Below, piece after piece: positions 3,217-32,919 of a DNA stretch of 38,695 nucleotides; within the stretch, counting starts at the first letter, position 1, and each line of letters begins with the position of its first letter. The notes below the pieces were generated by a model. It was given only the letters and a program-made list of their open reading frames with translations, had not been told where the DNA came from and searched no databases. The translations under genes were made by a program, and so were the position numbers. Source of the stretch: an uncultured Prevotellaceae bacterium (GTDB lineage: Bacteria > Bacteroidota > Bacteroidia > Bacteroidales > Bacteroidaceae). The DNA lies in the NCBI GenBank assembly GCA_946622085.1, contig CAMOPD010000003.1, forward strand, positions 1 through 38,695, read 5' to 3'.

Positions 3217-3279
3217 GTGATTATAATAGGCTTTTGTTATTTTATTTTTCGGAGTTCAAGGAGTCCCAGGTAGTTCGGC

Positions 3280-4209: not shown

Positions 4210-4233
4210 GTCAGTGTTTTCGTTAATCAGTTG

Positions 4234-4241
4234 CAAAGATA
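4234..4241 (-). promoter_or_regulatory. Promoter -7 box for the antiporter gene
   Basis: The minus strand reads TATCTTTG followed by C, an exact TAnnTTTG match, about 25 bases upstream of the ATG at 4209. It may also drive dnaX downstream. Confidence 0.75.
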
Positions 4242-4249
4242 ACAAAAAA

Positions 4250-4275
4250 TCCCCGAATGCTCACGCACTCGGGGA
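4250..4275 (-). terminator. Rho-independent terminator of the Hsp20 gene
   Basis: TCCCCGA (4250-4256) pairs with TCGGGGA (4269-4275). On the minus strand the hairpin is followed by ATTTTTTG. It lies about 110 bases beyond the hsp20 stop codon and directly before the antiporter promoter, so it insulates the two units. Confidence 0.8.
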
Positions 4276-4385
4276 AGAAAATCTAACAATCACACAAATA
4301 AATATCAAGCTTTATTCACCTATTGGAATAATTCCATGAAACAATCTTTCCACCTTATTATATATATACCTTTTCGCTCGGAGCC

Positions 4386-4814
4386 TTAGCCGATGTTGAT
4401 CTGGCGGGCCACCTTGACCTCCTCCTTCACAATCTTCGGCAGGTTGACGGTGAGCACACCGTCGGCCACGCTGGCTGCAATCTTCTCCTTGTCAACATCC
4501 TCAGGCAGGATGAGCGTCTGCTCGAACTTCGAATAAGAGAACTCGCGGCGCAGATAGCGTGCCTTGCGGTCTTCATCCTTCTTCTCCTGCTTGCTCTCCA
4601 TCTTGATGACAAGATTTCCTTCGTGATTGATGTTCACGTTGAAGTCTTCCTTTTTCATGCCCGGTGCGGCCAGCTCCACGCGGTATTCTTTCTCGTCTTC
4701 AAGCACGTTGATAGCCGGTGCAGTGGCATTGGCCTTCGGCATGAAGTCGGCATTGAACAAATCGTTGAACACTTCTGGTAACCAAGCATTTCTGTGCATT
4801 GTAGGATACATCAT
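4386..4814 (-). CDS. Small heat shock protein, Hsp20/alpha-crystallin family
   Basis: ATP-independent holdase chaperone that binds unfolding proteins in the cytoplasm. It has 142 residues: a short N-terminal arm (MMYPTMHRNAWLPEVFNDLF) and an alpha-crystallin domain from about residue 35. The family signature ADGVLTVNLPK stands near the end. A strong ribosome-binding site AGGAGG (4823-4828 region, minus strand) precedes tandem ATGATG codons, so either start is usable. Upstream, a leader of AT-rich sequence carries no clear TAnnTTTG box. I saw no CIRCE element. A weak promoter-like GGTATACTACTTGC lies around 4920-4940 on the minus strand. Single gene with its own terminator. Confidence 0.95.
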   Translation of the reverse strand: MMYPTMHRNAWLPEVFNDLFNADFMPKANATAPAINVLEDEKEYRVELAAPGMKKEDFNVNINHEGNLVIKMESKQEKKDEDRKARYLRREFSYSKFEQTLILPEDVDKEKIAASVADGVLTVNLPKIVKEEVKVARQINIG

Positions 4815-5115
4815 AATCTTTACCTCCTGTTTTTCTTTTTTTATTATTAATTTGTTGTTTTGTTTTTGTTCTTTGCGGGTCTCGGCTCCTCGTTGGGGCT
4901 TCAGCCTTCACCCACACATATTGCAAGTAGTATACCAAACCAGCACAGCACGACAAACTGTCAAACCAGAGCGCCAAAATGTCATATTACGAGCCGCCTT
5001 CCAGACTTGATTACCCCATTCACCTGTCTTTCTTTTTACCTCTTTTCCCCTCTTAACATCTCATTGCGCTGTTTTCGGGTCGAAATCACGCAGCTCTCAA
5101 TGAGTGTTTGGCATG

Positions 5116-5216
5116 TTTGCTGTCTGTTGACTGGAGTCAACGCACCTGTTGACTTAAGTCAACGCACCTGTTGACTGGAGTCAACAGATCTATTGACTTA
5201 AGTCAACAGACAGCAA
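5116..5216 (+). repeat. 101-bp palindromic repeat array, copy A (22-bp period)
   Basis: Four 14-bp dyads lie at 5127-5140, 5149-5162, 5171-5184 and 5193-5206, all starting exactly 22 bases apart. Units 1 and 3 are TTGACTGGAGTCAA; units 2 and 4 are the perfect palindrome TTGACTTAAGTCAA. The 8-base spacers are CGCACCTG, CGCACCTG and CAGATCTA. The outer flanks GCTGTCTG and CAGACAGC extend the end units into 14-bp terminal inverted repeats, 5119-5132 and 5201-5214. The element is repeated exactly, in reverse complement, at 32708-32808. No target-site duplication is visible. It lies between the 3' end of the lipoprotein gene and the upstream region of hsp20. The rest of 4815-5247 shows no gene. 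Confidence 0.95.
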
Positions 5217-5247
5217 TCGGCCTGCTTGCCCATTGACAGCAGCCCGA

Positions 5248-5988
5248 TTACTTCCGATAGTAGGCCTTGGTTTCGCCTGCGAAGCGCAGCAGCAGGGAGT
5301 CTCGCCTAAGGGAGAGAATCTCTGCCGTATCGGAGATGCTCTCTTTGGAGCTGTCGCGCGACTCCTGGGTGAGTATCAGTTTGCCGTTGAAGAGATGCCA
5401 CTCGGTGTAGAACCTTGGCCGCGGATATTGCACGAGGCTTTGCCGGTTGCGCCGGGCGTCGCGAGTGCCGCTTATGAGTGGCTGGGCGGCATGGTTGCGC
5501 TTCAGCGTGAATCCATATTCTCGTGGCACCATGATCTTCCGCATGATGCTGTCGGGAATAGGCGGCAGCGAGTCCTTCATCGCGGAGTCTACGGCACGTC
5601 GCCTCAGCGTGGGCATCACCTGATAGGCCCACGTGCCTTTCAGCCGGTCGATATTGACTACGCACAGCGCCTCATGCCTGTTGTCGGGATTGAAGGCCAC
5701 GGCCAGGTTGTCGCCTATGCGGGGGCGGCCCAGCACGCGGCGTGCCAGCGTGGCCCGCAGGATGTCGATGGTGTCGGGGTCGCCGCCTTCCTCGCTGAGG
5801 AATACCAGTATGGAGTCGGTGCATCCCTCGCAGGCCATCCCGTAGACCATGGAGTCGCCAGGCAGGGCACTTGCGGTGCCTGGAGCGCCGTTTTCCCCGC
5901 CCTGGGGCTTTCTGTCGGCACATGCTGCGGCCAGCATCAAGGCGGCCAGTAGAACGAAAAGATTTCTCACATTGATGATGTTACGCAT
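5248..5988 (-). CDS. Uncharacterised lipoprotein
   Basis: I do not recognise the family. The 246-residue product starts with a lipoprotein signal peptide (NLFVLLAALMLAAAC) whose lipobox LAAAC places the modified cysteine near residue 23, so it should be anchored to a membrane facing the periplasm or cell surface. The mature part has no membrane segment. It contains a GMACEGC motif with two close cysteines near residue 55. The C-terminal third (WHLFNGKLILTQ to LLLRFAGETKAYYRK) looks like short beta strands, as in lipocalin-like lipoproteins of Bacteroidetes; that resemblance is only impressionistic. The start is fixed by a promoter about 20 bases upstream. Transcribed alone, divergent from the carboxyltransferase gene. 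Confidence 0.8.
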   Translation of the reverse strand: MRNIINVRNLFVLLAALMLAAACADRKPQGGENGAPGTASALPGDSMVYGMACEGCTDSILVFLSEEGGDPDTIDILRATLARRVLGRPRIGDNLAVAFNPDNRHEALCVVNIDRLKGTWAYQVMPTLRRRAVDSAMKDSLPPIPDSIMRKIMVPREYGFTLKRNHAAQPLISGTRDARRNRQSLVQYPRPRFYTEWHLFNGKLILTQESRDSSKESISDTAEILSLRRDSLLLRFAGETKAYYRK

Positions 5989-6007
5989 ACAGGTTCTGTT
6001 TTGTTTG

Positions 6008-6015
6008 CAAAGGTA
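6008..6015 (-). promoter_or_regulatory. Promoter -7 box for the lipoprotein gene
   Basis: The minus strand reads TACCTTTG followed by C, an exact consensus match, 20 bases before the ATG at 5988. It stands back to back with the plus-strand box at 6060-6067. Confidence 0.75.
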
Positions 6016-6059
6016 TGAAAAAAAACGCCATAACTTATTGCGGAATTAAAAAAAATGCC

Positions 6060-6067
6060 TATTTTTG
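6060..6067 (+). promoter_or_regulatory. Promoter -7 box for the carboxyltransferase gene
   Basis: TATTTTTG followed by C matches TAnnTTTG. A weak ATTG at 6037-6040 stands in the -33 position. The predicted leader is about 65 bases. Confidence 0.65.
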
Positions 6068-6136
6068 CACCATGCACTGAAAAGTGTGCCATGAAGCGCT
6101 TATTATTCACACACTGTTATAACACAAATCTAAGGT

Positions 6137-7915
6137 ATGAAAAAGAAAATTCAATTCAGTCTTGTTTATCGAGACATGTGGCAGTCGTCTGGCAAGTTTC
6201 AACCGCGCAAGGACCAGTTGGAGCGCATAGCCCCCGTGATTATCGACATGGGAGTTTTCGACCGCGTGGAGACCAACGGCGGTGCTTTCGAGCAAGTGAA
6301 CCTGCTGGCTGGCGAGAACCCCAATGCGGCAGTACGCGCATTCTGCAAGCCTTTCAACGAAGTGGGCATCAAGACCCACATGCTCGACCGCGGTCTGAAC
6401 GCTTTGCGCATGTATCCCGTGCCCGACGACGTGCGCGAACTACAATATAAGGTGAAGCACGCTCAGGGAGTGGACATCCCCCGCATCTTCTGCGGACTAA
6501 ACGACGTGCGCAACATCATCCCTTCGGTGAAGTGGGCCAAGGCCGCGGGCATGACGCCACAGGCTACGCTCTGCATCACCACATCGCCAGTGCACACGGT
6601 GGAATACTACAGCAACATTGCCGACCAGGTGATTGAAGCCGGTGCCGAGGAGATCTGCTTGAAGGACATGGCCGGCATCGGACAGCCCGCCCTGCTCGGA
6701 GCGCTCACCAAGGCCATCAAGACCAAGCACCCGGAAGTCATCATACAGTATCACGGCCACTCTGGCCCCGGTCTCTCCATGGCCAGCATCCTGGAGGTGT
6801 GCAACAATGGCGCCGACGTCATCGACACCGCCATCGAACCGCTCTCGTGGGGAAAGGTGCACCCCGACATCATCAGCGTGCAGAGCATGCTCAAGAACGA
6901 AGGCTTCGAGGTGAAGGAAATCAACATGAAGGCCTATATGCAGGCCCGCTCGCTCACCCAGGAGTTCATCGACGACTGGCTGGGCTACTTCATCAATCCC
7001 GGCAACAAGCAAATGTCGTCGCTGCTGCTCGGATGCGGCCTGCCCGGCGGCATGATGGGCTCGATGATGGCCGACTTGGCTGGCATACACCACGTCATCA
7101 ACAACACGCTCAAGGCCAAGGGTGAGCCCGAACTCTCTACCGACGAGATGCTCGTGAAGCTCTTCGACGAGGTGGCCTACGTGTGGCCACGCGTGGGCTA
7201 TCCCCCACTGGTGACGCCGTTCTCGCAATATGTGAAGAACATCGCGCTGATGAACCTGCTCACACTGGCTCAGGGCAAGGGCCGCTTCGTCATGATGGAC
7301 GACTCGATGTGGGGCATGATTCTCGGCAAGAGCGGAAAGATTCCCGGAACCATCGACCCCGAGCTCGTGGAACTGGCCAAGAAGCAGGGCCGCGAATTCA
7401 CCGATGCCGACCCGCACACGCTCATCCCCAACGCCCTGGACGACTTCCGCAAGGAAATGGACGAGAACGGATGGGACTACGGACAAGACGACGAGGAACT
7501 CTACGAACTGGCCATGCACCCCGAGCAGTATCGCAACTTCAAGAGCGGACAGGCCAAGAAGAACTTCCTGGCCGACCTGCAGAAGGCCAAGGACGCCCGC
7601 ATGGGCTCCAAGCTCACACCCGAGCAGATCAGTGCCTTCAAGCACGCCAAGGCCGACGCCATCGTGGCTCCCGTCAAGGGTCAGCTCTACTGGGAGTTCA
7701 ACGGCGAGGGCGAATGCGCTCACACCGTGGAGCCATTCATCGGCAAGGAATACAAGGAAGGCGAGCCCTTCTGCTACATCCAGGCTCCCTGGGGCGAAAT
7801 CGTGAGCGTGCCGGCCGACTTGGGCGGAAAGCTGGTTGAGATAGATGCCAAGCAGGGCACCAAGGTGAACCGGGGCGACGTCATTGGCTATATTGAGCGC
7901 GACCACAAGGAATAA
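6137..7915 (+). CDS. Oxaloacetate decarboxylase alpha / pyruvate carboxylase B-like carboxyltransferase with degenerate biotinyl domain
   Basis: A member of the HMGL-like carboxyltransferase family that transfers CO2 between a 2-oxo acid and carboxybiotin. The N terminus carries LVYRDMWQSS, the counterpart of the family RDxxQS motif. EICLKDMAG contains the lysine expected to be carbamylated, and QYHGHSGPG holds the metal-binding histidines. A conserved carboxylase domain follows to about residue 480. The last 80 residues resemble a biotinyl domain (APVKGQL... and GTKVNRGDVIGYI), but the segment that should read EAMKM is QAPWGE at 549-554, with no lysine for biotin. No beta or gamma decarboxylase subunit or biotin carboxylase is adjacent, so a separate carrier protein is likely. 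Monocistronic, with its own terminator. Confidence 0.85.
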   Translation: MKKKIQFSLVYRDMWQSSGKFQPRKDQLERIAPVIIDMGVFDRVETNGGAFEQVNLLAGENPNAAVRAFCKPFNEVGIKTHMLDRGLNALRMYPVPDDVRELQYKVKHAQGVDIPRIFCGLNDVRNIIPSVKWAKAAGMTPQATLCITTSPVHTVEYYSNIADQVIEAGAEEICLKDMAGIGQPALLGALTKAIKTKHPEVIIQYHGHSGPGLSMASILEVCNNGADVIDTAIEPLSWGKVHPDIISVQSMLKNEGFEVKEINMKAYMQARSLTQEFIDDWLGYFINPGNKQMSSLLLGCGLPGGMMGSMMADLAGIHHVINNTLKAKGEPELSTDEMLVKLFDEVAYVWPRVGYPPLVTPFSQYVKNIALMNLLTLAQGKGRFVMMDDSMWGMILGKSGKIPGTIDPELVELAKKQGREFTDADPHTLIPNALDDFRKEMDENGWDYGQDDEELYELAMHPEQYRNFKSGQAKKNFLADLQKAKDARMGSKLTPEQISAFKHAKADAIVAPVKGQLYWEFNGEGECAHTVEPFIGKEYKEGEPFCYIQAPWGEIVSVPADLGGKLVEIDAKQGTKVNRGDVIGYIERDHKE

Positions 7916-7939
7916 GAATCCTCATAGACTACCACCAAG

Positions 7940-7984
7940 AATCCCAGGAACAGCTGCCAAGAAGAGCGTTCCTGGGATTTTTTC
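7940..7984 (+). terminator. Rho-independent terminator after the carboxyltransferase gene
   Basis: AATCCCAGGAAC (7940-7951) pairs perfectly with GTTCCTGGGATT (7968-7979), followed by a T run. It lies 25 bases beyond the stop codon. Confidence 0.9.
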
Positions 7985-8059
7985 TTCCCCAAAGCGCAGG
8001 AGGCTCCGGAACACGCCGACTACCCGGAAGGCCAGATGAAGAATTTGGCAGCTTTTTTC

Positions 8060-8090
8060 TTTGTCGTCACCATTTTAATCATTACCTTTG
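8060..8090 (+). promoter_or_regulatory. Promoter of the HD-domain gene
   Basis: TTTG at 8060-8063 and TACCTTTG at 8083-8090 are separated by 19 bases, the canonical Bacteroidetes spacing. Transcription would start near 8096, after the in-frame TTG at 8088. Confidence 0.85.
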
Positions 8091-8114
8091 CAACATCAAA
8101 ATGAGAAAAGGAGC

Positions 8115-8657
8115 ATGATAAAGAACTATCAGCCAATCATCGACAAGTATTATCCCGAAGATAACGAGCTGCGCCACATCCTCATCACCCACAGCCGCAG
8201 CGTGGCCGACAAGGCCTTGAGCATAGCCAAGGCGCACCCGGAAATGCATCTCGACACCGAGTTTCTGGAAGAAGCGGCCATGCTCCACGACATCGGCGTC
8301 TTTCTCTGCCATGCCCCTGGCATCCAGTGCTTTGGCAACGAGCCCTACATCCGTCACGGCATGCTGGGAGCCCAACTGCTGCGACAGGAAGGACTGGCGC
8401 GCCATGCACGCGTGTGCGAACGCCACACCGGAGCAGGCATCTCGGCGGAAGAAATTGAGCGCCAGCAGCTGCCCCTGCCTCCCGGCGACTATCTGCCCGA
8501 GACGCTGGAAGAAAAGGCCATCTGCTTTGCCGACAAATTCTTCAGCAAGACACGGCTCGACCGCGAAAAGACGCTCGAACAGGCCACTGAAAGCCTGAAG
8601 AAATTTGGCAACGAGGGCGTGAAACGCTTTCTGCAATGGGCCGAAATGTTTAAGTAA
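8115..8657 (+). CDS. HD-domain phosphohydrolase, uncharacterised
   Basis: A 180-residue cytoplasmic protein of the HD superfamily, metal-dependent phosphohydrolases that often act on nucleotides. The defining His-Asp pair is in EEAAMLHDIGVF (residues 58-59). An upstream His (H26, in ILITHSRS) and later RHG, ERHTG and ADKFF segments supply the other expected metal ligands. Substrate unknown; small stand-alone HD proteins of this length are usually annotated only as HD-domain proteins. The ATG at 8115 follows AAAAGGAG at good spacing; earlier in-frame codons overlap the promoter. It is separated by 88 bases from lptD, which has its own promoter. Confidence 0.88.
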   Translation: MIKNYQPIIDKYYPEDNELRHILITHSRSVADKALSIAKAHPEMHLDTEFLEEAAMLHDIGVFLCHAPGIQCFGNEPYIRHGMLGAQLLRQEGLARHARVCERHTGAGISAEEIERQQLPLPPGDYLPETLEEKAICFADKFFSKTRLDREKTLEQATESLKKFGNEGVKRFLQWAEMFK

Positions 8658-8699
8658 ATCGGTGTTTGCTATTGTTAAATAAACCATAAAAACGGGCCT

Positions 8700-8734
8700 T
8701 TTGTGAGATATTAGGCATTTATTCCGTAATTTTG
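8700..8734 (+). promoter_or_regulatory. Promoter of lptD
   Basis: TTTG at 8700-8703 and TAATTTTG at 8727-8734, with 23-base spacing. The -7 box ends only 11 bases before the ATG, predicting a leader of just a few bases. Confidence 0.75.
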
Positions 8735-8745
8735 CACCTTGCAAA

Positions 8746-11646
8746 ATGAGAACGAAGTCTGTTATATTCATCTTGCTGTCGGTCGTTATCTTCATATTGG
8801 CCGATACGCACATGCCCTTTTCCCCGGAGAAAACATGGGGGAATAATGGCGACACCGTTCTCCATTTGCCCGACACTCCCGACACATTAAAACCCCAAAA
8901 CAGCGACCCTGCGGAGCCGAAGGACAGCACCTCAGACGCCCACTCTCCGGGCGAGATGCTGCCCGACAGCACTCTGCTGCCCGACACCCTGCTGGGCATG
9001 GACTCGCTGCAACGTGCCGTCTATCTGCACAACAAAGCCATCGACGACTCCATCAGCCTGGACAGCATGGCCCGCAACAAGAAAAACGGCATTGAGGCTC
9101 CGGTGGAATACGAAGCCGAGGACTCGCTCGTCTACGATGCCGCCTCCAAGCGAGTGTGGCTCTACGGCAAGTCGCACGTGAAGTATCAGAACATGGAGCT
9201 CAACAGCGAGAAGGTGAACATGAGCATGAACGACAACGTGGTTCATGCCACGGGTGTGGCCGACTCAACAGGTGCGCTGAGCGGACAGCCTGTGTTCCAG
9301 TGGGGCCAAGACACCTATGAGAACGACACCATTGCCTTCAACTTCAAAACCAAGAAGGGACTGATTACCAACGTCTACACGCAGCAGGAAGAAGGATATC
9401 TGACGAGCCAGAAAGCCAAGCGAAACGACGAGGGCGATATGTTCATTCAGCATGGCCGCTACACCACCTGCGAACTGCCCCACCCCGACTTCTACATCTC
9501 GTTGTCGCGCGCCAAGGTGCGTCCGGGCAAAGACGTGGTGTTCGGACCGGCCTATCTGGTGGTGTGCGATGTGCCGCTGCCGATAGCCATCCCCTACGGA
9601 TTCTTCCCCTTCACCAAGAGCTACAGCAGCGGTTTCATCATGCCCACCTATGGCGATGAGAGCGCCCGCGGATTCTATCTGCGCGACGGCGGCTACTATT
9701 TCGCCATCAGCGACAAGATGGACCTGAAACTCATCGGCGAAATCTACACCAAAGGCTCATGGGGCATCACCGCCACCACAAACTACAGAAAGCGCTACAG
9801 ATATAGCGGCAACTTCCTCTTCAGCTATCAGGACACGAAAAACGGCGATAAGGGCATGCCCGACTTCACCGAAGAGGAGAGCTTCAAGCTGCAGTGGAGC
9901 CATCGGCAAGACCAGAAGGCCAACCCCTTCAGCACGTTCTCGGCAAGCGTGAACTTCGCCACATCGAGCTTTGAGCGCAACAACCTGACGAGCATGTACA
10001 ACCCGCAGGCCATGACGCAGAGCACAAGAACGTCGAGCGTGAACTGGAGCACATCATTCTCGAGCATCGGACTGACGCTCAACAGCACCATGAACCTGAA
10101 CCAGAACATGCGCGACTCATCCATCAGCATGACGCTGCCCGACCTGAACATCTCGCTGAGCCGATTCTACCCCTTCAAGCGCAAACACGCTGCCGGAGCC
10201 GAGCGATGGTATGAGAAACTCTCCGTGAGCTATACCGGCCACTTCAGCAACTCCATCAACACCAAGGAAAGCGAGCTGATGCACACGAACATTATCAAAG
10301 ACTGGAAGAACGGCATGCAGCACCAGATTCCCATCAACGGCTCGTTCACGCTCTTCAACTACATCAATGTGAATCCCTCGTTCAACTTTACCGACCGCAT
10401 GTACACCAACAAGATTGTCAAGTCGTGGGACGAGGTGGGACAGCGCGAAGTGGCCGATACCATCTACGGTTTCAACAACGTCTACAACTGGAACCTCAGC
10501 ATGGGACTCTCCACCAAGCTCTATGGATTCTTCACTCCTTCGCGCAAGCTCTTCGGCGACAAGATTAGTGCCATTCGCCACGTCATCACCCCACAAGTGA
10601 ACTTCAGCTATGCGCCGGACTTCAGCGCCCAGCGCTATGGCTACTACAACACCTACCAGAAGACCGACGCCAACGGCAACGTGTCGCTCGTGCAATATTC
10701 ACCTTACGACGGCAGCCTCTACGGCGTGCCGGGCAAAGGGCGCACGGGAAGCATCTCTTTTGACGTGGGCAACAACGTGGAGATGAAAATAAAGACCGAC
10801 AAGGACACCACAGGATTCAAGAAAATCAGCATCATCGACGAACTCGGAGCCAGCATGTCGTACAACATGGCGGCCAAGGAGCGGCCTTGGAGCGACTTGA
10901 GCACCCGCATCCGACTGAAGCTCACCAAGAGCTACACGTTCAACATGAATGCCGTCTTCTCCACCTACGCCTACGACCTGGACGACGATGGCAAGCCCTA
11001 CATTGGCACCCACACCGAGTATAGCCGCGGACGCTTCGGACGCTTCCAGGGCATGTCGCAGAACCTCTCGTTCACGCTGAATCCCGAGACTTTCAAGAAA
11101 TGGTTCGGCAAAAAGGAGAAGGACGAGGACGAAGACAACGGCAACTCGTCGGACGACGATGACAGCGACACTGGCGTGGACACCAACATCGACGACGACA
11201 TGATGCGCGGACAGCGGGGAGCAAAGAAAGAGAATGCAGGACTGGCCGAAACCGACGGCGACGGATACATGACGTTCTCCATGCCCTGGAGCATCACTTT
11301 CGGCTATGGCATCACCATGCGCGAAAACACACAGGGGAAATTCAACACAAAAACCATGCGCTATCCCTACGGCTTCACCCAGACGCTCAACATGAGCGGC
11401 AACCTGAGACTCAGCGACGGATGGAACATTTCGTTCTCGAGCGGCTACGACTTCGAACACAAGGCTTTCTCGATGACTACGGCCTCACTGCAACGCGACC
11501 TGCACTGCTTCAACATGTCGTGCTCGGTGGTGCTGGCTCCCTATACCAGCTACAACTTCAGCTTCAGATGCAATGCCGCCACACTGACCGACGTGCTGAA
11601 ATACGACAAGAAGAGTGGCTATTCCAATGCCGTGCAGTGGTATTGA
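8746..11646 (+). CDS. lptD: Outer-membrane LPS assembly protein LptD-like
   Basis: Large 966-residue outer-membrane protein that should insert lipopolysaccharide (or lipooligosaccharide) into the outer leaflet. An N-terminal signal sequence (MRTKSVIFILLSVVIFILAD) is followed by a Pro/Asp/Ser-rich stretch. Then comes an OstA/LptA-like beta-jellyroll region with typical DSLVYDAASKRVWLYG, SEKVNMSMNDN and GRYTTCELPHPDFY segments. From about residue 270 alternating aromatic strands form the predicted barrel. A strongly acidic insertion (about residues 788-825, Asp/Glu/Ser runs) lies in a presumed loop. Length is normal for Bacteroidetes LptD. I keep the ATG at 8746 because it opens the signal peptide, although the promoter leaves almost no leader and no Shine-Dalgarno sequence. 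Confidence 0.9.
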   Translation: MRTKSVIFILLSVVIFILADTHMPFSPEKTWGNNGDTVLHLPDTPDTLKPQNSDPAEPKDSTSDAHSPGEMLPDSTLLPDTLLGMDSLQRAVYLHNKAIDDSISLDSMARNKKNGIEAPVEYEAEDSLVYDAASKRVWLYGKSHVKYQNMELNSEKVNMSMNDNVVHATGVADSTGALSGQPVFQWGQDTYENDTIAFNFKTKKGLITNVYTQQEEGYLTSQKAKRNDEGDMFIQHGRYTTCELPHPDFYISLSRAKVRPGKDVVFGPAYLVVCDVPLPIAIPYGFFPFTKSYSSGFIMPTYGDESARGFYLRDGGYYFAISDKMDLKLIGEIYTKGSWGITATTNYRKRYRYSGNFLFSYQDTKNGDKGMPDFTEEESFKLQWSHRQDQKANPFSTFSASVNFATSSFERNNLTSMYNPQAMTQSTRTSSVNWSTSFSSIGLTLNSTMNLNQNMRDSSISMTLPDLNISLSRFYPFKRKHAAGAERWYEKLSVSYTGHFSNSINTKESELMHTNIIKDWKNGMQHQIPINGSFTLFNYINVNPSFNFTDRMYTNKIVKSWDEVGQREVADTIYGFNNVYNWNLSMGLSTKLYGFFTPSRKLFGDKISAIRHVITPQVNFSYAPDFSAQRYGYYNTYQKTDANGNVSLVQYSPYDGSLYGVPGKGRTGSISFDVGNNVEMKIKTDKDTTGFKKISIIDELGASMSYNMAAKERPWSDLSTRIRLKLTKSYTFNMNAVFSTYAYDLDDDGKPYIGTHTEYSRGRFGRFQGMSQNLSFTLNPETFKKWFGKKEKDEDEDNGNSSDDDDSDTGVDTNIDDDMMRGQRGAKKENAGLAETDGDGYMTFSMPWSITFGYGITMRENTQGKFNTKTMRYPYGFTQTLNMSGNLRLSDGWNISFSSGYDFEHKAFSMTTASLQRDLHCFNMSCSVVLAPYTSYNFSFRCNAATLTDVLKYDKKSGYSNAVQWY

Positions 11647-11700
11647 CAAGGCTTTTCGACATCCAGCCCCCCTGCAGATTCGCCACTGCATAGAAACAGC

Positions 11701-11757
11701 GAGCACGCTGCTCGATCGAAGCGAGCACGCCGCTCGCTTGGAGAGAGCACGCCGCTC
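11701..11757 (+). repeat. Three-unit near-palindromic array with 22-bp period
   Basis: GAGCACGCTGCTC at 11701-11713 and GAGCACGCCGCTC at 11723-11735 and 11745-11757 start exactly 22 bases apart. Each is a GAGC...GCTC dyad. The 9-base spacers are GATCGAAGC and GCTTGGAGA, and a partial GATCGACGA follows the last unit. The array starts 54 bases after the lptD stop codon and has no T run, so it is not a typical terminator. The remainder of 11647-11892 is AT-rich spacer without a gene. Confidence 0.85.
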
Positions 11758-11892
11758 GATCGACGAAAGGAAGTAGGACGAGAATGCATGTCATGACTTT
11801 TCATAAACCGATTTCAACCTTTTTGAACCTTTTTCTTTGGTTGAACTCACGTTAATCTTCCATAATCTTTCGTGTTTCACAACAAATTTCCA

Positions 11893-11900
11893 TATCTTTG
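11893..11900 (+). promoter_or_regulatory. Promoter -7 box for the secreted protein gene
   Basis: TATCTTTG followed by C is an exact consensus match. It ends only 5 bases before the ATG at 11906, so the mRNA would be leaderless or nearly so. TTTC at 11868-11871 is a possible -33 element. Confidence 0.7.
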
Positions 11901-11905
11901 CAAAG

Positions 11906-14068
11906 ATGAAACCTCGACTATCTATATTGCCGCTGATAGCGGCCTTGCTGATGAGCACTTTGCCAGGCAAGGCTGCTGAGGGGTCGGCACCCAAAAAAGA
12001 AAACAACACTGCCAACATCATCTCGGAGAAAGAACTGAAGCATCGCTCCATGGCGATGCTCGCACGGTTTATGGAATATGCCAAGAGCATCTATACCGAT
12101 GCAGGCGTCAACGCGCGGGGCGACTCGTGCGGCTACTTCAAGGCCTTGAAAGCCGGAGGCAGCGATGAAGACGGTGTTCGCACCAATGCCGACATAGCCA
12201 TGACGATGGCTTTTGTGGCTCGCTATGGCAAGGCCGATGGCGTGGACCTGCCCGCCGGGTTGACTGATGCCGACCTGCGCCGCATGGCCAAGCGCGCACT
12301 GACTTGGGCTTACAGCACCCATCGGGCCAATCAGCTGGTAGCCTGTGCCGATGGCAAGCACTGGGGAAGCCAGGGCGGCCAGTGGCAATGGGAGAGTTCG
12401 CTATGGGCCATGAGCGTAGCTTTGTGTGCCCACTTCCTGAACGCAGAGGGACCGATGGCAGAAAGCGTGAGAAAACTCATTGTGGCTGAAGCCGATGCGG
12501 AACTGGTGCGACAAGTGCCCACCAACTATCGCAACGACACCAAAGCCGAGGAGAACGGATGGGACGCCAACGTGCTGGCATGTGCTGTAGGCATGATGCC
12601 CAGCCACCCCCACTCCAAGCAATGGCGCGAAGCCATGTGCCGGTTTGGCTTCAACTGCTACACGGTGAAAGCCGACCAACAAGACACCACGATGGTGGCT
12701 GGCAGACACGCCAAAGACTGGTATGCAGGCGCAAACCTCTTCGACGACTTCACGCTGCAAAACCACAACTTTTTCCACACAAGCTATCAGAACGTAGTGA
12801 TGCAGGAACAGGCAGAAAGCATGGTTGTGGAAAAGCTGTTTGGGGGAGAGCCCACCACCGACATCTTCACCTGGCACTGGCAGGAAGTATGGAATGAGGT
12901 GTTGGCCCCCATGGCTCTTTGCGACGGCGAACTGGCCATGCCCAACGGCAACGACTGGAGTCTCTACTTAGGCGACCAGATGCCCGCCTACACAGCCATG
13001 GCTGCCTTCAAGCGCAATGGCGAAGCCCTGATGCTCGAAAGCCGTACACTCAGGCTAATAGAGGCACGCCAGGCCACCACTCCCAACGGCGCCTGGATGC
13101 TTCATGCTGACATAGGCCCACGGCGAATGGGCGTAACAGCCCACCGCGTGATGATGACATGGCTCATGCACGAACTCTTCTCTACCGCCGACCTGACGCC
13201 CGTCGGCTGGGAAACATTCCAGTACAACCATGCCAAGGCTAAAATCCTGCCGGCACAAAACATCATACGCTCTTTATCGGAAGAACGGTTCGTAAGTTTC
13301 TCGTGGAGCAACGGACTGAAAAACGCCAATTGCCTGATAGTGCCCAACCAAGCTGACGAACGGGCCAGAATCATTGTTCCCTACAGAAAGGGCGGAACAG
13401 GCAATCTGATTGGATATTACGGAAACGAGCCGTCGGAGCCAAGCGGCGAACTGAAGCTGGCAGGCAACACGCTGCAATGGATTGCCAGCGGACGAATGCT
13501 CGTAGGCGCAGGCAAGGCCCACCAGAATTTCGGCATTGCCGCCCTGCCCAGCAATGCGGTGGTGATGGTAGACGAACTGAAGGCGAGCTCGGCTGCCACG
13601 CTGGGCACCGACCGCGTGGGCATGCTGGCCATTTCTGTTGACCCTGTTTCCAAGCCTCAGCGCACACTCTACTGGGATGGCGGTTCCACTACGACCGACG
13701 GCTCAGAAATGGTGATAATGCCTTCGCGATGGGTGAACATTGACAACCAGATAGGCATCATCTCTCTGGACGAAAGGCCCATCATGGCCTTTGGCGACCG
13801 GGAACTCTGCAACTCCATCTATACCGCTAAGCTCTACCCGTCGTACGGAGAGAGCAGGGTGAGCACGCACGAGAATGACAACCGTCACCACCTTATTTAT
13901 TATATGAACGTGACTGCGGAGCAAACCGCACGACTCGCCCGAAAAGCCAGCGTGAAGACAAGCCCAGGCAAGAGCACCATGCACGTGGAAGACACCGACG
14001 GAAACAAATATCAGGTGGAAGCCAACCTCTCTGACCCAGACAAAAGAATTGTAACCAAAAAACTATAA
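11906..14068 (+). CDS. Large secreted protein of unknown function, possibly polysaccharide-lyase-like
   Basis: A 720-residue exported protein that I cannot assign to a named family. A signal peptide (MKPRLSILPLIAALLMSTLPGKAAEG) suggests a periplasmic or surface location. Residues about 40-450 are helical with repeated Trp/His/Asn-rich motifs (GKHWGSQGGQWQWESSLWAM, NHNFFHTSYQNVV, FTWHWQEVWNE). The C-terminal 300 residues look like beta sheet. A helical toroid followed by a beta sandwich is the layout of chondroitin AC/heparinase-type lyases, and the NH...H.SY motif would suit a substrate cleft; this is inference from layout only. No sus genes are nearby. The start at 11906 opens the signal peptide; the upstream ATG at 11837 precedes the promoter. 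pepT follows 15 bases later. Confidence 0.75.
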   Translation: MKPRLSILPLIAALLMSTLPGKAAEGSAPKKENNTANIISEKELKHRSMAMLARFMEYAKSIYTDAGVNARGDSCGYFKALKAGGSDEDGVRTNADIAMTMAFVARYGKADGVDLPAGLTDADLRRMAKRALTWAYSTHRANQLVACADGKHWGSQGGQWQWESSLWAMSVALCAHFLNAEGPMAESVRKLIVAEADAELVRQVPTNYRNDTKAEENGWDANVLACAVGMMPSHPHSKQWREAMCRFGFNCYTVKADQQDTTMVAGRHAKDWYAGANLFDDFTLQNHNFFHTSYQNVVMQEQAESMVVEKLFGGEPTTDIFTWHWQEVWNEVLAPMALCDGELAMPNGNDWSLYLGDQMPAYTAMAAFKRNGEALMLESRTLRLIEARQATTPNGAWMLHADIGPRRMGVTAHRVMMTWLMHELFSTADLTPVGWETFQYNHAKAKILPAQNIIRSLSEERFVSFSWSNGLKNANCLIVPNQADERARIIVPYRKGGTGNLIGYYGNEPSEPSGELKLAGNTLQWIASGRMLVGAGKAHQNFGIAALPSNAVVMVDELKASSAATLGTDRVGMLAISVDPVSKPQRTLYWDGGSTTTDGSEMVIMPSRWVNIDNQIGIISLDERPIMAFGDRELCNSIYTAKLYPSYGESRVSTHENDNRHHLIYYMNVTAEQTARLARKASVKTSPGKSTMHVEDTDGNKYQVEANLSDPDKRIVTKKL

Positions 14069-14083
14069 CAACAAAAGAAAAAC

Positions 14084-15307
14084 ATGGATATTACCGAAAG
14101 ATTTCTTAATTACGTGAAGTTTGACACGCAATCAAGCGAAGACTCAGAGAGCGTGCCAAGTACATCAAAGCAACTGGTGTTTGCTGAATATCTGAAGAAA
14201 GAACTTGAAGACGAAGGATTCGATGACGTGGAAATGGACGAAAAAGGCTACATCTATGCCACACTAAAGGCCAACACCCGCAAGGAAATTCCCACCATCG
14301 GCTTTATCAGCCACTACGACACCAGCCCCGATTGCTCAGGAGAGAACGTGAAGCCGAGCATTGTGCGCAACTATGATGGTTCAGACATTGAGCTCTCGCC
14401 GGACATCGTGTCAAGCCCAAAGAAATTTCCTGAACTGCTTAGCCATGTGGGCGAAGACATCATCGTGACCGACGGAACCACGCTGCTCGGAGCCGACGAC
14501 AAGGCCGGCATCGCAGAAATCGTGCAAGCCATGTGCTACCTGCGCGACCACAAGGAAATCAAGCACGGCGATATCCGCATGGGATTCAATCCCGACGAGG
14601 AAATTGGCATGGGGGCTCACCACTTCGACGTGGAGAAGTTTGGATGCGAATGGGCCTACACCATGGATGGCGGCGACTTGGGCGACCTGGAATTCGAGAA
14701 CTTCAACGCCGCATCGGCCAAGATTTTCATCAAGGGCGTGAGCGTGCATCCTGGCTATGCCAAGGGCAAAATGATCAATGCCAACCGCCTGGCCGTGGAG
14801 TTTGCTTCCATGCTTCCTGCCGACCAGACCCCCGAAACCACCGAAGGCTATGAGGGATTCTATCATTTGCTGGGCATTGAGAGCAACATTGAGAACGCCC
14901 GTCTGAACTACATCATCCGCGATCACGACCGCGACCGCTTTGAAGACCGCAAGCTATTCATCGAACGCTGTGTGGAAAAGATGCAGAAAAAGTATGGTGA
15001 AGAGGCCATCAGATGTGAGGTGAAAGACCAATACTACAACATGAAGGAGAAAATAGACCCCAACATGCACGTCATCGACCTCGTACTCAAAGCCATGCAG
15101 GAATGCGACGTCCCCCCACGCGTGGAGCCCATCCGTGGAGGCACTGACGGCGCACAGCTCTCATTCAAGGGACTGCCATGCCCTAACATCTTCGCCGGCG
15201 GCGTGAATTTCCACGGCCCCTACGAATTCGTCAGCATACAAGTGATGGAGAAAGCCATGCAGGTGGTGGTGAAGATTTGCGAACTGACAGCCGCCTATAA
15301 CGACTAA
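14084..15307 (+). CDS. pepT: Peptidase T (tripeptide aminopeptidase)
   Basis: Zinc aminopeptidase of family M20 that releases the N-terminal residue from tripeptides in the cytoplasm. At 407 residues it has the usual PepT length. Metal and catalytic residues are visible: H77 and D79 in SHYDTSP, the bridging aspartate in LLGADDKAG (about 138-139), E172/E173 in NPDEEIG, D195 in MDGGD, and the late histidine in NFHGPYE. The start follows the preceding stop by 15 bases and is preceded by AAAAGAAAAAC. No separate promoter is visible, so it is probably co-transcribed with the secreted protein gene. Confidence 0.96.
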
Positions 15308-15352
15308 ACCTTTGATTGACAGCAACAGAGCACACTCTTATCTAACAGGCAG

Positions 15353-17605
15353 ATGGCCGAACTTCCAACAATAATAAAGGACCTTGCACTGATTCTTGTC
15401 GTAGCAGGTGTTGTAACGCTCATTTTCAAGAAACTCAAGCAACCACTGGTGTTAGGCTATGTGGTGGCAGGATTCATGGTCTCTCCACACATGCCCTACA
15501 CCATGTCGGTAGTCGACACGGAGAACATTCACACATGGGCAGACATCGGCGTGATGTTCCTCCTGTTTTCCTTAGGACTCGACTTCTCGTTCAAGAAGAT
15601 TCTGAAGATGGGGGCTTCTCCAATCATCGCCACATGTACCATCGTGTTCTGTATGATGATGCTCGGCATCATGGTTGGGCATGCCTTCGGATGGGCCAAA
15701 ATGGACTGCATCTTCCTTGGCGGCATGCTCGCCATGTCGTCAACAACCATCATCTATAAGGCCTTCGACGACCTTGGTCTGCGGCAACAGCACTTTGCAG
15801 GACTTGTGATGAGTGTGCTCATTCTTGAAGACATTCTGGCCATTGTGATGATGGTGATGCTGGCGGCCATAGCCAGTGGCAACAATCCCGACGGCGGACA
15901 GATGCTCGGAAGCGTTGTGAAGATAGGCTTCTTCCTTGTGCTCTGGTTTGTGGTGGGCATCTTTGCCATTCCTCTGTTTCTGCGGCGTGTGCGCAAGTTG
16001 ATGAATAGCGAAGTGCTGCTCATCGTGTCGCTCGGACTTTGTTGCGCCATGGCCGTGCTGAGCACGAGCGTTGGCTTCAGTAGTGCCTTCGGTGCCTTTG
16101 TCATGGGAAGCATCCTGGCCGAAACCATTGAGGCGGAAAAAATCATCAAGCTCGTAGAGCCGGTGAAGAATCTCTTCGGAGCAATATTCTTTGTTTCGGT
16201 CGGCATGCTCGTCGACCCCAATATCCTCATAGCCTATGCTCTGCCCATCGTGGCACTGGTGATGACCATCCTTTTGGGCCAAGCCGTCTTCGGCTCTTTA
16301 GGGTTCATGCTGGCAGGTGAGTCGCTCAAATCGGCCATGAAGTGCGGATTCTCCATGGCTCAGATAGGCGAATTTTCGTTCATCATTGCCTCATTGGGCC
16401 TCTCGCTCGGCGTCATAGGCGATTTCCTCTATCCGGTGGTGGTGGCCGTATCAGTCATAACAACATTCCTCACACCTTACATGATACGGTTTGCCACACC
16501 GGCTTACAACCATCTGGAGCAGCACCTCTCGCCCAAATGGGTGCGCTCGCTCAACCATCTGAGCATGAGTCATCCCAACTCAACGGAACATGGACTCTGG
16601 CACAAGCTGCTCATCCAGATGGCAAGCAACACGCTCATCTATTCCATCCTCTCGGCAGCAGTCATTGCACTGATGTTCACCTTCTTCCTGCCCTTCATCC
16701 ACCAGGTGCTCCCAGGCAAAGAGATGCTCTGGTATGGCAATGCCATCACGGGGGTTGCTACCGTCCTGCTCATTTCACCCTTCCTCAGAGCCATGGTCAT
16801 GAAGAAGAACCACTCAGAAGAATTCAAAGCCCTTTGGCGCGAGAGCAACATCAACCACCTGCCGCTCATCTTCACCATCCTCGTTCGCATGGTCATTGCC
16901 ATGGGATTCATCTTCTACATCTGCCATCACCTTTCCCACTTCAGTCGTGCCATCATCATCACCATCGGCATTGTGGCCTTGATGACAATCATCTTCTCGC
17001 GGTGGATTAAGCATCGCAGCATCAAGCTGGAACGGCTCTTCATCCTGAACCTGCGGTCGCGCGACATTGAAGCCCAGGTGCATGGCCACAAACGCCCACT
17101 CTACGAAGGCCGTCTGCTCGACCGCGACATCCACATTGCCGACTTCGAGATTCCCACAGACTCGCAATGGTCGGGAATGACGCTTCGCGAGCTCAACCTG
17201 GGCAAGAAATACGGCATCCACGTGAGCAGCATCCTGCGAGCCGGACGGCGGTTCAACATACCCGACGGCAACGACCGCATCTTTCCGGGAGACACGCTGC
17301 AGGTGATTGGAAGCGACGACCAGCTGACCACCTTCAAGCATGCACTCGAAGAGGCTCTCTTTGAGGAGGACTATGAACTGGAGAAACGCGAGATGAAACT
17401 GCGTAGCATCGTCATTTCAGGCAACAGCCCCTTCGTTGGGCTCACCCTCCAGGAGAGTGGCATCCGCGACCAGTTCAACTGCATGGTGGTGGGCATTGAG
17501 GAAGGAAAAGAGAACCTCTCGCTGGTGAAGCCTTCCTACCGTTTCGAGAAAGGAGACATCATCTGGGTAGTGGGCGAAGAGGACAACCTGAACAAGCTGA
17601 AATAG
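15353..17605 (+). CDS. Monovalent cation:proton antiporter, CPA2 family, with two C-terminal RCK_C (TrkA-C) domains
   Basis: Inner-membrane K+/Na+:H+ antiporter of the KefB type. The 750-residue protein has an N-terminal Na/H-exchanger domain (about residues 10-385) with FLLFSLGLDFSFKKI and the conserved core VLILEDILAIVMM. Further membrane segments follow (about 425-555). Two soluble RCK_C-like domains end the protein: about 590-670 (WSGMTLRELNLGKKYGI) and about 685-750 (FVGLTLQESGI). There is no NAD-binding RCK_N domain between pore and RCK_C domains, unlike E. coli KefB/KefC, so ligand control probably differs. It lies 45 bases after pepT with no own promoter seen, suggesting one operon. 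Confidence 0.9.
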   Translation: MAELPTIIKDLALILVVAGVVTLIFKKLKQPLVLGYVVAGFMVSPHMPYTMSVVDTENIHTWADIGVMFLLFSLGLDFSFKKILKMGASPIIATCTIVFCMMMLGIMVGHAFGWAKMDCIFLGGMLAMSSTTIIYKAFDDLGLRQQHFAGLVMSVLILEDILAIVMMVMLAAIASGNNPDGGQMLGSVVKIGFFLVLWFVVGIFAIPLFLRRVRKLMNSEVLLIVSLGLCCAMAVLSTSVGFSSAFGAFVMGSILAETIEAEKIIKLVEPVKNLFGAIFFVSVGMLVDPNILIAYALPIVALVMTILLGQAVFGSLGFMLAGESLKSAMKCGFSMAQIGEFSFIIASLGLSLGVIGDFLYPVVVAVSVITTFLTPYMIRFATPAYNHLEQHLSPKWVRSLNHLSMSHPNSTEHGLWHKLLIQMASNTLIYSILSAAVIALMFTFFLPFIHQVLPGKEMLWYGNAITGVATVLLISPFLRAMVMKKNHSEEFKALWRESNINHLPLIFTILVRMVIAMGFIFYICHHLSHFSRAIIITIGIVALMTIIFSRWIKHRSIKLERLFILNLRSRDIEAQVHGHKRPLYEGRLLDRDIHIADFEIPTDSQWSGMTLRELNLGKKYGIHVSSILRAGRRFNIPDGNDRIFPGDTLQVIGSDDQLTTFKHALEEALFEEDYELEKREMKLRSIVISGNSPFVGLTLQESGIRDQFNCMVVGIEEGKENLSLVKPSYRFEKGDIIWVVGEEDNLNKLK

Positions 17606-17710
17606 CCCCACGGGGAGTCTCTGTGCTCCAAAGGCAACTGCCAACACCACTTTTTTCAGGTTTTTAGCATAATTTTCCATTGACAATGGACGATTATCGG
17701 CTAAAAGTGT

Positions 17711-17718
17711 TACCTTTG
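17711..17718 (+). promoter_or_regulatory. Promoter -7 box of the queuosine operon
   Basis: TACCTTTG followed by C is an exact consensus match. Transcription should start about 17724, just before the riboswitch. A CCATT-GAC-AATGG inverted repeat at 17677-17689 lies upstream near the -33 region. Confidence 0.8.
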
Positions 17719-17734
17719 CACCCGCAAAAAACAC

Positions 17735-17769
17735 AGGGGTACTTGCTCAACCCCCTTTAACAAAACAAG
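17735..17769 (+). promoter_or_regulatory. PreQ1-I-type riboswitch
   Basis: Stem P1 is AGGGG (17735-17739) with CCCCU (17752-17756). The loop contains CUUGCU, and its CUUG (17742-17745) is complementary to CAAG (17766-17769) in the A-rich tail UUAACAAAACAAG, giving the H-type pseudoknot P2 of the class. The tail closely resembles that of the characterised Thermoanaerobacter preQ1 switch. The tail ends three bases before the ATG at 17773, so ligand binding would hide the translation start region. The genes controlled are a queuosine-precursor transporter and queF, exactly the expected regulon. Confidence 0.88.
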
Positions 17770-17772
17770 ACA

Positions 17773-18462
17773 ATGAAAAAGAAACAACCAACAGTGAGTG
17801 TGCTGTTCATGCTTTTCAGCATCCTCTTTTGTGTTTGCCTCATTGCGGCAAACCTCTTTGCAACAAAGCAGATTGCCCTTGGAAACATCAGCGTGACGGG
17901 AGGGCTCATCATTTTTCCCATTTCCTACATTGTGAACGACTGCGTGTGCGAAGTGTGGGGCTACAAGAAGACTCGACTGCTCATCTGGGTGGGCTTTGCC
18001 ATGAATTTCTTCTTTGTGCTCATGGGCGCATTGTGCGACCTCATACCCGCAGCCCCCTACTACACCAATACTGAGGGCTTCCATGGCGTATTCGGATTGG
18101 CTCCGCGCGTAGCCATGGCTTCGTTTTGCGCCTTCCTCGTGGGCTCGTTTCTCAATGCCTACGTGATGAGCCGCATGAAGATTGCCTCAAACGGCAACAA
18201 CTTCTCGGCACGCGCCATTTTGAGCACCATCGCAGGCGAAGGAGCCGACTCGCTCATCTTCTTTCCCCTCGCATTGGGAGGCGTAGTACCCACTGATGCC
18301 CTCATTCCTCTCATGCTCTGGCAAGTGGTACTCAAGACGGTCTACGAAGTCATTGCCCTGCCGCTCACCATCCGAGTGGTGAAGCTGCTCAAGGCCCACG
18401 AAGGCGAAGATGTGTATGACAACGGTATCAGCTACAACGTGCTGAACGTTCTAAGCATTTAA
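17773..18462 (+). CDS. Queuosine precursor transporter (YhhQ/QPTR family)
   Basis: Inner-membrane importer of 7-deazaguanine precursors such as preQ0 or preQ1. The 229-residue protein has about six hydrophobic segments. Family features are an early AANLFATKQI, the segment FPISYIVNDCVCEVWGYKKTR and GEGADSLIFFPLALGG. It is the first gene behind a preQ1-I-type riboswitch whose tail reaches the start codon, and is followed 12 bases later by queF. The context supports salvage of external queuine precursors combined with the last step of preQ1 synthesis. Which precursor it carries cannot be told from sequence. Confidence 0.93.
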   Translation: MKKKQPTVSVLFMLFSILFCVCLIAANLFATKQIALGNISVTGGLIIFPISYIVNDCVCEVWGYKKTRLLIWVGFAMNFFFVLMGALCDLIPAAPYYTNTEGFHGVFGLAPRVAMASFCAFLVGSFLNAYVMSRMKIASNGNNFSARAILSTIAGEGADSLIFFPLALGGVVPTDALIPLMLWQVVLKTVYEVIALPLTIRVVKLLKAHEGEDVYDNGISYNVLNVLSI

Positions 18463-18474
18463 AAAAACAACAAT

Positions 18475-18936
18475 ATGGAAACAAGAAACCAGGAAGGGCT
18501 GCAAGCGTTAGGCAGGCAGACAACCTATAGCTCCGACTACAATCCGCAGGTGCTGGAGACATTCCACAACATGCATCCGGGAAACGACTATTGGGTGCAG
18601 TTCAACTGTCCCGAGTTCACCACGCTCTGCCCCATCACGGGGCAGCCCGACTTTGCCGAAATCAGAATTATGTACGTGCCCGATGAACTCATGGTGGAGA
18701 GCAAAAGCCTGAAGCTCTACCTCTTCAGCTTCCGCAACCACGGCGACTTCCACGAGGACTGCGTGAACATCATCATGAAAGACCTCATCCGGCTGATGCA
18801 ACCCAAATACATCGAAGTGGTGGGACTGTTCACTCCCCGCGGGGGCATCAGCATACATCCCTATGCCAACTATGGCAAGCCCGGCACCAAATACGAACAA
18901 TTGGCCGAGCACCGATTCATGAACCACAACATGTAG
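18475..18936 (+). CDS. queF: NADPH-dependent 7-cyano-7-deazaguanine reductase
   Basis: Reduces preQ0 to preQ1, the base inserted into tRNA before conversion to queuosine. The 153-residue length fits the short unimodular QueF. The catalytic cysteine is C52 in [12 protein letters not shown], and D59 in the same motif is the proton donor. The QueF signature ESKSLKLY is at residues 75-82. Twelve bases separate it from the transporter, so both answer to the upstream preQ1 riboswitch. A strong hairpin follows. Confidence 0.97.
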
Positions 18937-18957
18937 AGTGGTCTCCCCCCTCTTCGT

Positions 18958-19015
18958 CTTTCGGGGCTTTATTGTGCTGCTAATTCTCACAGCCAGCACA
19001 ATAAAGCCCCGAAAG
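18958..19015 (+). terminator. 22-bp perfect hairpin after queF
   Basis: Bases 18958-18979 pair perfectly with 18994-19015 around a 14-base loop. A T-rich TTTTCTTT tract follows a few bases later. It ends the riboswitch operon and may reduce reading into the next gene. Confidence 0.8.
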
Positions 19016-19053
19016 CATCGTTTTCTTTATAAATGCAAGAAAACATCTCACCC

Positions 19054-19737
19054 ATGAAGAAAATCCTCCTTTCACTCGTGATGCTGCTCCCGGCCATGCC
19101 GATGCTGGCACAATATCAGCGGGGCGACACGTTCCTCTATCCACGCATAGGCATCAACGTTGCCAACATGAGCGGCAACGACATCTTCTATATTGTAGAC
19201 CCGTTAGACTCGAAAGGCAAATCGGGGCTCACCGCCGGCCTTGAAGTGGAGCGGTTTGTGGCCAGCAGGCTGAGCCTGTCGCTCGGCGCTTTCTATTCCA
19301 ACGTGGGATGCCGTTACGACGACTTCGGCTATGTGGACACACAAAAGGCCATCTACGAAAACACAGAGAACAGCAAATGGAACGTCCACCAGCTGAGCAT
19401 GCCCCTCATGGCCAATTTCTACGTCACCGAGCATCTCGCCCTGAAGCTTGGCGTAGAGGGCAACTATCTGCTTTCGGCCAAGGTCACCAGCGACTTCACG
19501 CATGGACGCATAGAAGACATCAGTAAATACATTCCAGAAGAGCAACGCAGTGAATCGGAAGACATCACATCGGCCTTCCACAAAATGACCGTCTCCATAC
19601 CTGTAGGAGCCTCAATAGAATATAAACATGTGGTGCTTGATGCCCGCTACTACATGGGAATCACCAAGGCAACAAAGCTTTACGATTCATGCCACAGATG
19701 GTTTGCCCTGACCCTGGGCTACCAGCTGGAACTCTGA
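19054..19737 (+). CDS. Outer-membrane beta-barrel protein (PorT/OMP_b-brl_2-like)
   Basis: A 227-residue exported protein. The signal peptide MKKILLSLVMLLPAMPMLAQ is followed by a small barrel with amphipathic strands: LYPRIGINVANMSG near the start, then GLEVERFVASRLSLSLGAFYSNVG, and a C-terminal aromatic strand WFALTLGYQLEL. This matches the small 'porin family' or PorT-like proteins of Bacteroidetes, whose function is unknown. I chose the ATG at 19054, at the signal peptide, over 19033. No exact TAnnTTTG box is seen between the queF hairpin and the start; TATAAATG at about 19029 is a weak candidate. The stop codon lies only 9 bases from that of the convergent gene. Confidence 0.85.
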   Translation: MKKILLSLVMLLPAMPMLAQYQRGDTFLYPRIGINVANMSGNDIFYIVDPLDSKGKSGLTAGLEVERFVASRLSLSLGAFYSNVGCRYDDFGYVDTQKAIYENTENSKWNVHQLSMPLMANFYVTEHLALKLGVEGNYLLSAKVTSDFTHGRIEDISKYIPEEQRSESEDITSAFHKMTVSIPVGASIEYKHVVLDARYYMGITKATKLYDSCHRWFALTLGYQLEL

Positions 19738-32561: not shown

Positions 32562-32707
32562 AGAATGAATAAAAATAAATAATTGTGATTGTATATTTTC
32601 TCTTTTAGACGCTCTGAGTCCCACATGGTTTAACGGGGCAAGGAAAAAAATCGGGCGCCAGGGGGAGAACCGCCGAATGACGTGCCCGCAACCCGTAATC
32701 ACGCCAC

Positions 32708-32808
32708 TTGCTGTCTGTTGACTTAAGTCAATAGATCTGTTGACTCCAGTCAACAGGTGCGTTGACTTAAGTCAACAGGTGCGTTGACTCCAGTCAACAG
32801 ACAGCAAA
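32708..32808 (-). repeat. 101-bp palindromic repeat array, copy B (reverse complement of copy A)
   Basis: Exact reverse complement of 5116-5216 over all 101 bases. Dyads lie at 32718-32731, 32740-32753, 32762-32775 and 32784-32797, again 22 bases apart, with flanks GCTGTCTG and CAGACAGC. Outside these limits the two flanks differ at once. It occupies the divergent gap between the barrel gene and aroB, about 110 bases upstream of the aroB -33 element. The rest of 32562-32919 is spacer without a recognisable gene. Confidence 0.95.
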
Positions 32809-32919
32809 TGGCTTGATTAAGCCCTGCAAAGGGCGTCGTCTGACCCAGCAGAATGGCGAGTAACAGAGATGAAAACCGTGAGAATTGCGAGCCAGATGCC
32901 AAAGAAAATGGGTTTTCGT

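Follow-up and report, generated by a model that had tools for sequence, protein, structure and literature searches.

A dispersed, probably MITE-like intergenic repeat with 22-bp-spaced dyads in an uncultured Prevotellaceae bacterium

Introduction

Three described systems resemble the repeat reported here. The nearest kind is BrickBuilt of Porphyromonas gingivalis, which also belongs to the Bacteroidales. BrickBuilt is a MITE that lies between genes, forms stem-loops, and contains a 23-nt minisatellite; it carries IS5-type terminal inverted repeats (TIRs; GAGACCTTCGCA), is variable in unit number and reaches up to ~1 kb (PMC4596501). REP/BIME elements, attributed to RAYT transposases, are likewise dispersed intergenic palindromes with species-specific sequences. 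The tandem sites of Lrp/AsnC proteins are short dyads that are clustered at regular intervals within about 100 bp (PMC2995911).

The present element differs from each of them. Its unit is 22 nt, against 23 nt in BrickBuilt; within this genome its core always has four units, its arms are symmetric and inverted, and families sharing the period but unrelated in sequence coexist within one genome. The BrickBuilt TIR GAGACCTTCGCA has no match near either copy described below, with two mismatches allowed. Because neither the period nor the TIR agrees, the element is designated as BrickBuilt-like and not as a member of BrickBuilt. Compared with REP/BIME, it has a larger unit and a fixed 22-bp phasing, and no RAYT was found in the genome. 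Lrp/AsnC sites are regulatory and lie at particular promoters, whereas the present repeats are dispersed, with neither a fixed gene context nor a linked protein.

Results

Two inverted copies of a 101-bp core

The window, which is the whole stretch of 38,695 nucleotides that was analysed, corresponds to contig C3 (CAMOPD010000003.1) of a draft metagenome-assembled genome (MAG; GCA_946622085.1; 2.13 Mb, 222 contigs, 73% complete). It contains two copies of the core. Copy 2 (32708-32808, forward strand) is located between a divergent outer membrane beta-barrel gene and aroB, and copy 1 (5116-5216, reverse strand) between hsp20 and a lipocalin-like gene (g05). As the original prediction stated, the two are exact reverse complements at 101/101 bases, ~27.5 kb apart. 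Directly beyond either end of this stretch not one further base matches, and 112 nt are aligned at 96% when mismatches are allowed. The probability that such a match arose by chance is negligible.

The core is composed of TTGCTGTCT, four 16-bp dyads of the form GTTGACT-NN-AGTCAAC at offsets 0, 22, 44, and 66, and then AGACAGCAA. In copy 2, the dyads on the forward strand are GTTGACTTAAGTCAAT (32717-32732), GTTGACTCCAGTCAAC (32739-32754), GTTGACTTAAGTCAAC (32761-32776), and again GTTGACTCCAGTCAAC (32783-32798), giving the order TA-CC-TA-CC of the central dinucleotides. The number of four dyads and the exact 22-bp spacing are kept in all 18 complete copies of the genome. The core is predicted to fold very stably (-72 kcal/mol, z about -12).

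Degenerate arms and the full element

The full element is ~150-230 bp long, with two inverted degenerate arms around the core. For copy 2 (L001), the 168-bp alignment with the C58 copy (L013), at 88%, together with the arm alignment places the left arm at approximately 32666-32707 on the forward strand, and the right arm, inverted relative to the left, at approximately 32809-32833 on the reverse strand. Copy 1 and its arms (5033-5252, reverse strand) can be aligned with the C7 copy at 88% identity along 222 bp. The flanks had been claimed to diverge immediately; this holds for copies 1 and 2 compared with each other, but not generally, as these two longer matches demonstrate. The arms of all copies fit one inverted degenerate consensus, roughly GCTTTCAACCCGAAATCGGGCCACTTGCTGTCT in the direction towards the core. 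Mean identity between copies is ~50% in the arms and 92% in the cores (97% within the main core type). In the alignment across copies the arms end without a sharp boundary, and the sister species is so diverged that its alignment at the insertion ends is too poor to read a target-site duplication. Putative hairpins in the arms look convincing by eye, although their covariation was not significant against swapped controls. A common repeat, TAGGGACGCGCC / GGCGCGTCTCTACA, adjoins several copies (flanks of L008, L016, L017, and L018).

Copy number and exchange of cores

Complete cores were found at 18 places in the genome, and 15 further cores are cut by contig ends (33 places). Because two contig ends may stem from a single copy, the genome contains about 26-33 copies in all. 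Copies 1 and 2 are not a special pair, and the term "second copy" in the original prediction is wrong. Based on the order of the central dinucleotides, the complete copies are divided into two core types, TA-CC-TA-CC (12 copies) and TA-TA-CC-CC (6 copies). An invariable pairing of TA with CC centres is seen in this genome but not in others, and was dropped as a rule.

The relationships of the arms and those of the cores are discordant. L008 and L016 have similar arms (0.78) and different core types, as do L001 (copy 2) and L013 (0.76). Conversely, L001 and L002 have identical cores with arms only 0.63 alike, and copies 1 and 2 share the same core with different arms. This pattern is as expected from ectopic gene conversion or another exchange of cores between copies, and such exchange would account for an exact 101-base match with abruptly ending flanks. 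The original proposal of recent dispersal or gene conversion is supported by the copy number and by this discordance. Some of the apparent core-type switches could instead reflect rearranged units within individual copies. The copies were all taken from a single draft MAG, and assembly from short reads can make repeats uniform or join them wrongly.

Genomic context and synteny

The complete copies for which a gene was called on both sides all lie between genes or at a gene edge. Their neighbors are divergent in 7, convergent in 4, and tandem in 5 cases, and these mixed orientations argue against a role as a terminator.

The barrel gene and aroB are adjacent and divergent in eight relatives (G238, G135, G119, G195, G208, G110, G061, and G201), where 150-260 bp without a 22-nt array separate the aligned gene ends. 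Because this junction is conserved, the assembled gene order at copy 2 is judged ancestral by comparison among these genomes, and the element therefore either entered a stable junction or was lost there. Conservation of an array upstream of aroB was considered and rejected, as only 2 of 29 other aroB loci show a lag-22 signal (G194 with 22-nt units, and G270 with an 11-nt period).

Copy 1, between hsp20 and g05, coincides with a synteny breakpoint relative to the relatives, which could be a MAG misjoin. A third 22-nt array of unrelated palindromic units (GAGCACGCCGCTC type) was recognized by lag scan at 11663-11798; it has no second place in its own genome and is also situated at a synteny breakpoint, between LptD and g09. 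Two of the three arrays in the window thus lie at breakpoints, which is suggestive and statistically not strong. Comparison of 1462-19737 with G135, G238, G195, and G110 revealed several local inversions and translocations; the re-ordered blocks are g05-g08, g10-g11, and g12-g13, and the order of g19-g29 is largely kept.

Arrays with a 22-nt period across the genus

The pattern TGACTNNAGTCA-N10-TGACTNNAGTCA, with one mismatch allowed, was found in 17 of 398 genomes of the genus, and its reversed control had no match among the genomes listed. The named genomes with a match are mostly Prevotella MAGs from ruminants. Matches from Clostridia, Granulicatella, and Hymenobacter look like unrelated palindromes and were excluded from the count; one of the sequences outside Bacteroidales, L117:207-285 of Hymenobacter metallicola, has TGACTATAGTCA palindromes spaced 22-23 nt, possibly by coincidence. 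In the species with the pattern, the flanks are also 22-nt periodic, with a self-match of 0.412 at lag 22 against about 0.25 at other lags.

Unbiased lag scans, whose array counts rest on sampled sequence, revealed 20 arrays at lag 22 against 0-9 at other lags in this genome (398 kb), 12 against 0-3 in the complete genome G016 (200 kb), and 17 against 0-7 in 20 genomes of the genus (400 kb). In G121, lag 22 is not prominent (13 arrays, against 15 at lag 14), yet 62 pattern matches are present there. Although open reading frames cover 81-91% of the sequence, 61 of 65 lag-22 arrays are mostly outside them, and 33 of the 65 are palindromic at p<0.05. The array sequences are unrelated between species. 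In a smaller sample from other families of the order, lag 22 was not enriched, with 4 matches in 258 kb, of which 2 are runs of N.

A second repeat family was found in the same genome, with ~40 copies of ~215 bp (for example, L152:3314-3534 and L162:10870-11100). It is delimited by TTTTGTAAAAATAATTCACAA-like sequences and contains four 22-bp units of a different, GTAAGCACGCCACTTAC type, and its copies are 79-89% identical. At L224:8026-8356, three different 22-nt arrays follow one another directly within a single intergenic region, and the dyad centres of the first two are seemingly an exact multiple of 22 apart.

Discussion

Copies 1 and 2 are best explained, with a probability of about 60%, as members of a dispersed, non-coding, intergenic MITE-like repeat family in a genome of the Prevotella type. 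In size (~150-230 bp), copy number (26-33), and intergenic position, the element agrees with the definition of MITEs as short (50-1000 bp), non-coding, and present in many copies. As for terminal inverted repeats, inverted arms are present, about 50% identical and without a sharp end. No match to the element was found in phage and plasmid collections, and the genome-wide transposase search, which covered Y1_Tnp, revealed no autonomous partner or mobilising enzyme. The element probably spread as a non-autonomous unit, and recent spread together with ectopic gene conversion between copies would keep the cores near-identical. At a phasing of 22 bp, about two helical turns, the dyads may all lie on roughly the same side of the double helix, and for that reason the core is predicted, more tentatively, to be recognised by a single DNA-binding protein in the form of tandem dimers. 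Candidate readers would be a transposase acting in trans or an oligomeric regulator of the host. Against this reading, a length of 22 bp slightly exceeds two turns of 10.5 bp each.

The original prediction also raised an invertible segment, in which recombination between the inverted copies flips 27.5 kb and swaps the upstream regions of hsp20 and aroB. The exact, inverted identity of the copies and the synteny breakpoint at copy 1 agree with it, and such recombination is physically possible. But eight relatives keep the junction of the barrel gene and aroB, the flipped order with g05 beside aroB occurs in no relative examined, those window proteins that were scanned against Pfam gave no match to a recombinase family, and ~30 other copies deprive this pair of any special status. 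An invertible segment is accordingly most improbable, and the element is not a dedicated inversion switch. It is very improbable as well that short-read assembly of the repeat created the exact identity or the junction at copy 1: 15 contig ends fall inside the repeat and copy 1 sits at the synteny break, but the copies differ by core type, single bases, and arms, and the junction at copy 2 keeps the ancestral order.

Under a host function, the core would not be a selfish repeat but a conserved platform, kept by selection, to which a nucleoid protein or an oligomeric regulator binds, such as one of the Lrp/AsnC type. The regular 22-bp dyads, the recurrence of this period throughout the genus in arrays of other sequence, and the almost exclusively intergenic location of the arrays would suit such a platform, and Lrp-type proteins use clustered sites of 13-17 bp and wrap about 100 bp (PMC2995911). 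It is nevertheless rather unlikely, as the copies have no link to a gene class or orientation, the position at aroB is not conserved, the sequence differs between species, and each genome has 1-3 Lrp genes against several array families. Lrp-family genes are present but not distinctive, and their counts are uninformative. Strong selection on this particular sequence, also suggested originally, is less likely for the same difference of cores between species. A role in RNA, with the long hairpin serving as a terminator, stabiliser, or processing site of transcripts, is quite improbable. The very stable predicted fold is what it would need, but any palindromic array folds in this way, so the hairpin alone is no evidence for RNA; moreover, divergent contexts are the most frequent, the window has no Rfam match, the core lacks a T-tail, and the arm hairpins show no significant covariation. 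A REP/BIME-type element moved by a RAYT (Y1 tyrosine) transposase is most improbable. Many-copy intergenic palindromes with species-specific sequences are typical of that type, but REPs are units of 20-40 bp (PMC3733652), and the RAYT domain PF01797 has no match in this 73%-complete genome (G000) or in five relatives with arrays (G121, G198, G318, G263, and G003), while it was found in G010, G016, G183, and control genomes.

The MITE-like family itself belongs to a wider set of arrays. A search of the open literature, with subscription journals and preprints outside its scope, retrieved no description of 22-bp-phased arrays in Prevotella, and sequence-unrelated 22-base arrays in many species of the genus seem undescribed. 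A tentative and still doubtful interpretation is a genus-wide class whose members keep the 22-bp period, the dyad symmetry, and a number of about four units but are almost unconstrained in sequence. If so, DNA would be read or written in dyad steps of 22 bp by some undescribed protein or replication process, and the arrays would spread and become homogenised within each species.

An ordinary dispersed repeat explains the pair of copies in the window, and the interest lies in the class of arrays. That a spacing of about two helical turns persists despite turnover of the sequence points to a physical reader, which could be sought directly. Dispersed copies exchanging their cores are natural substrates for rearrangement and, in a genus abundant in the rumen, they interrupt assemblies made from short reads.
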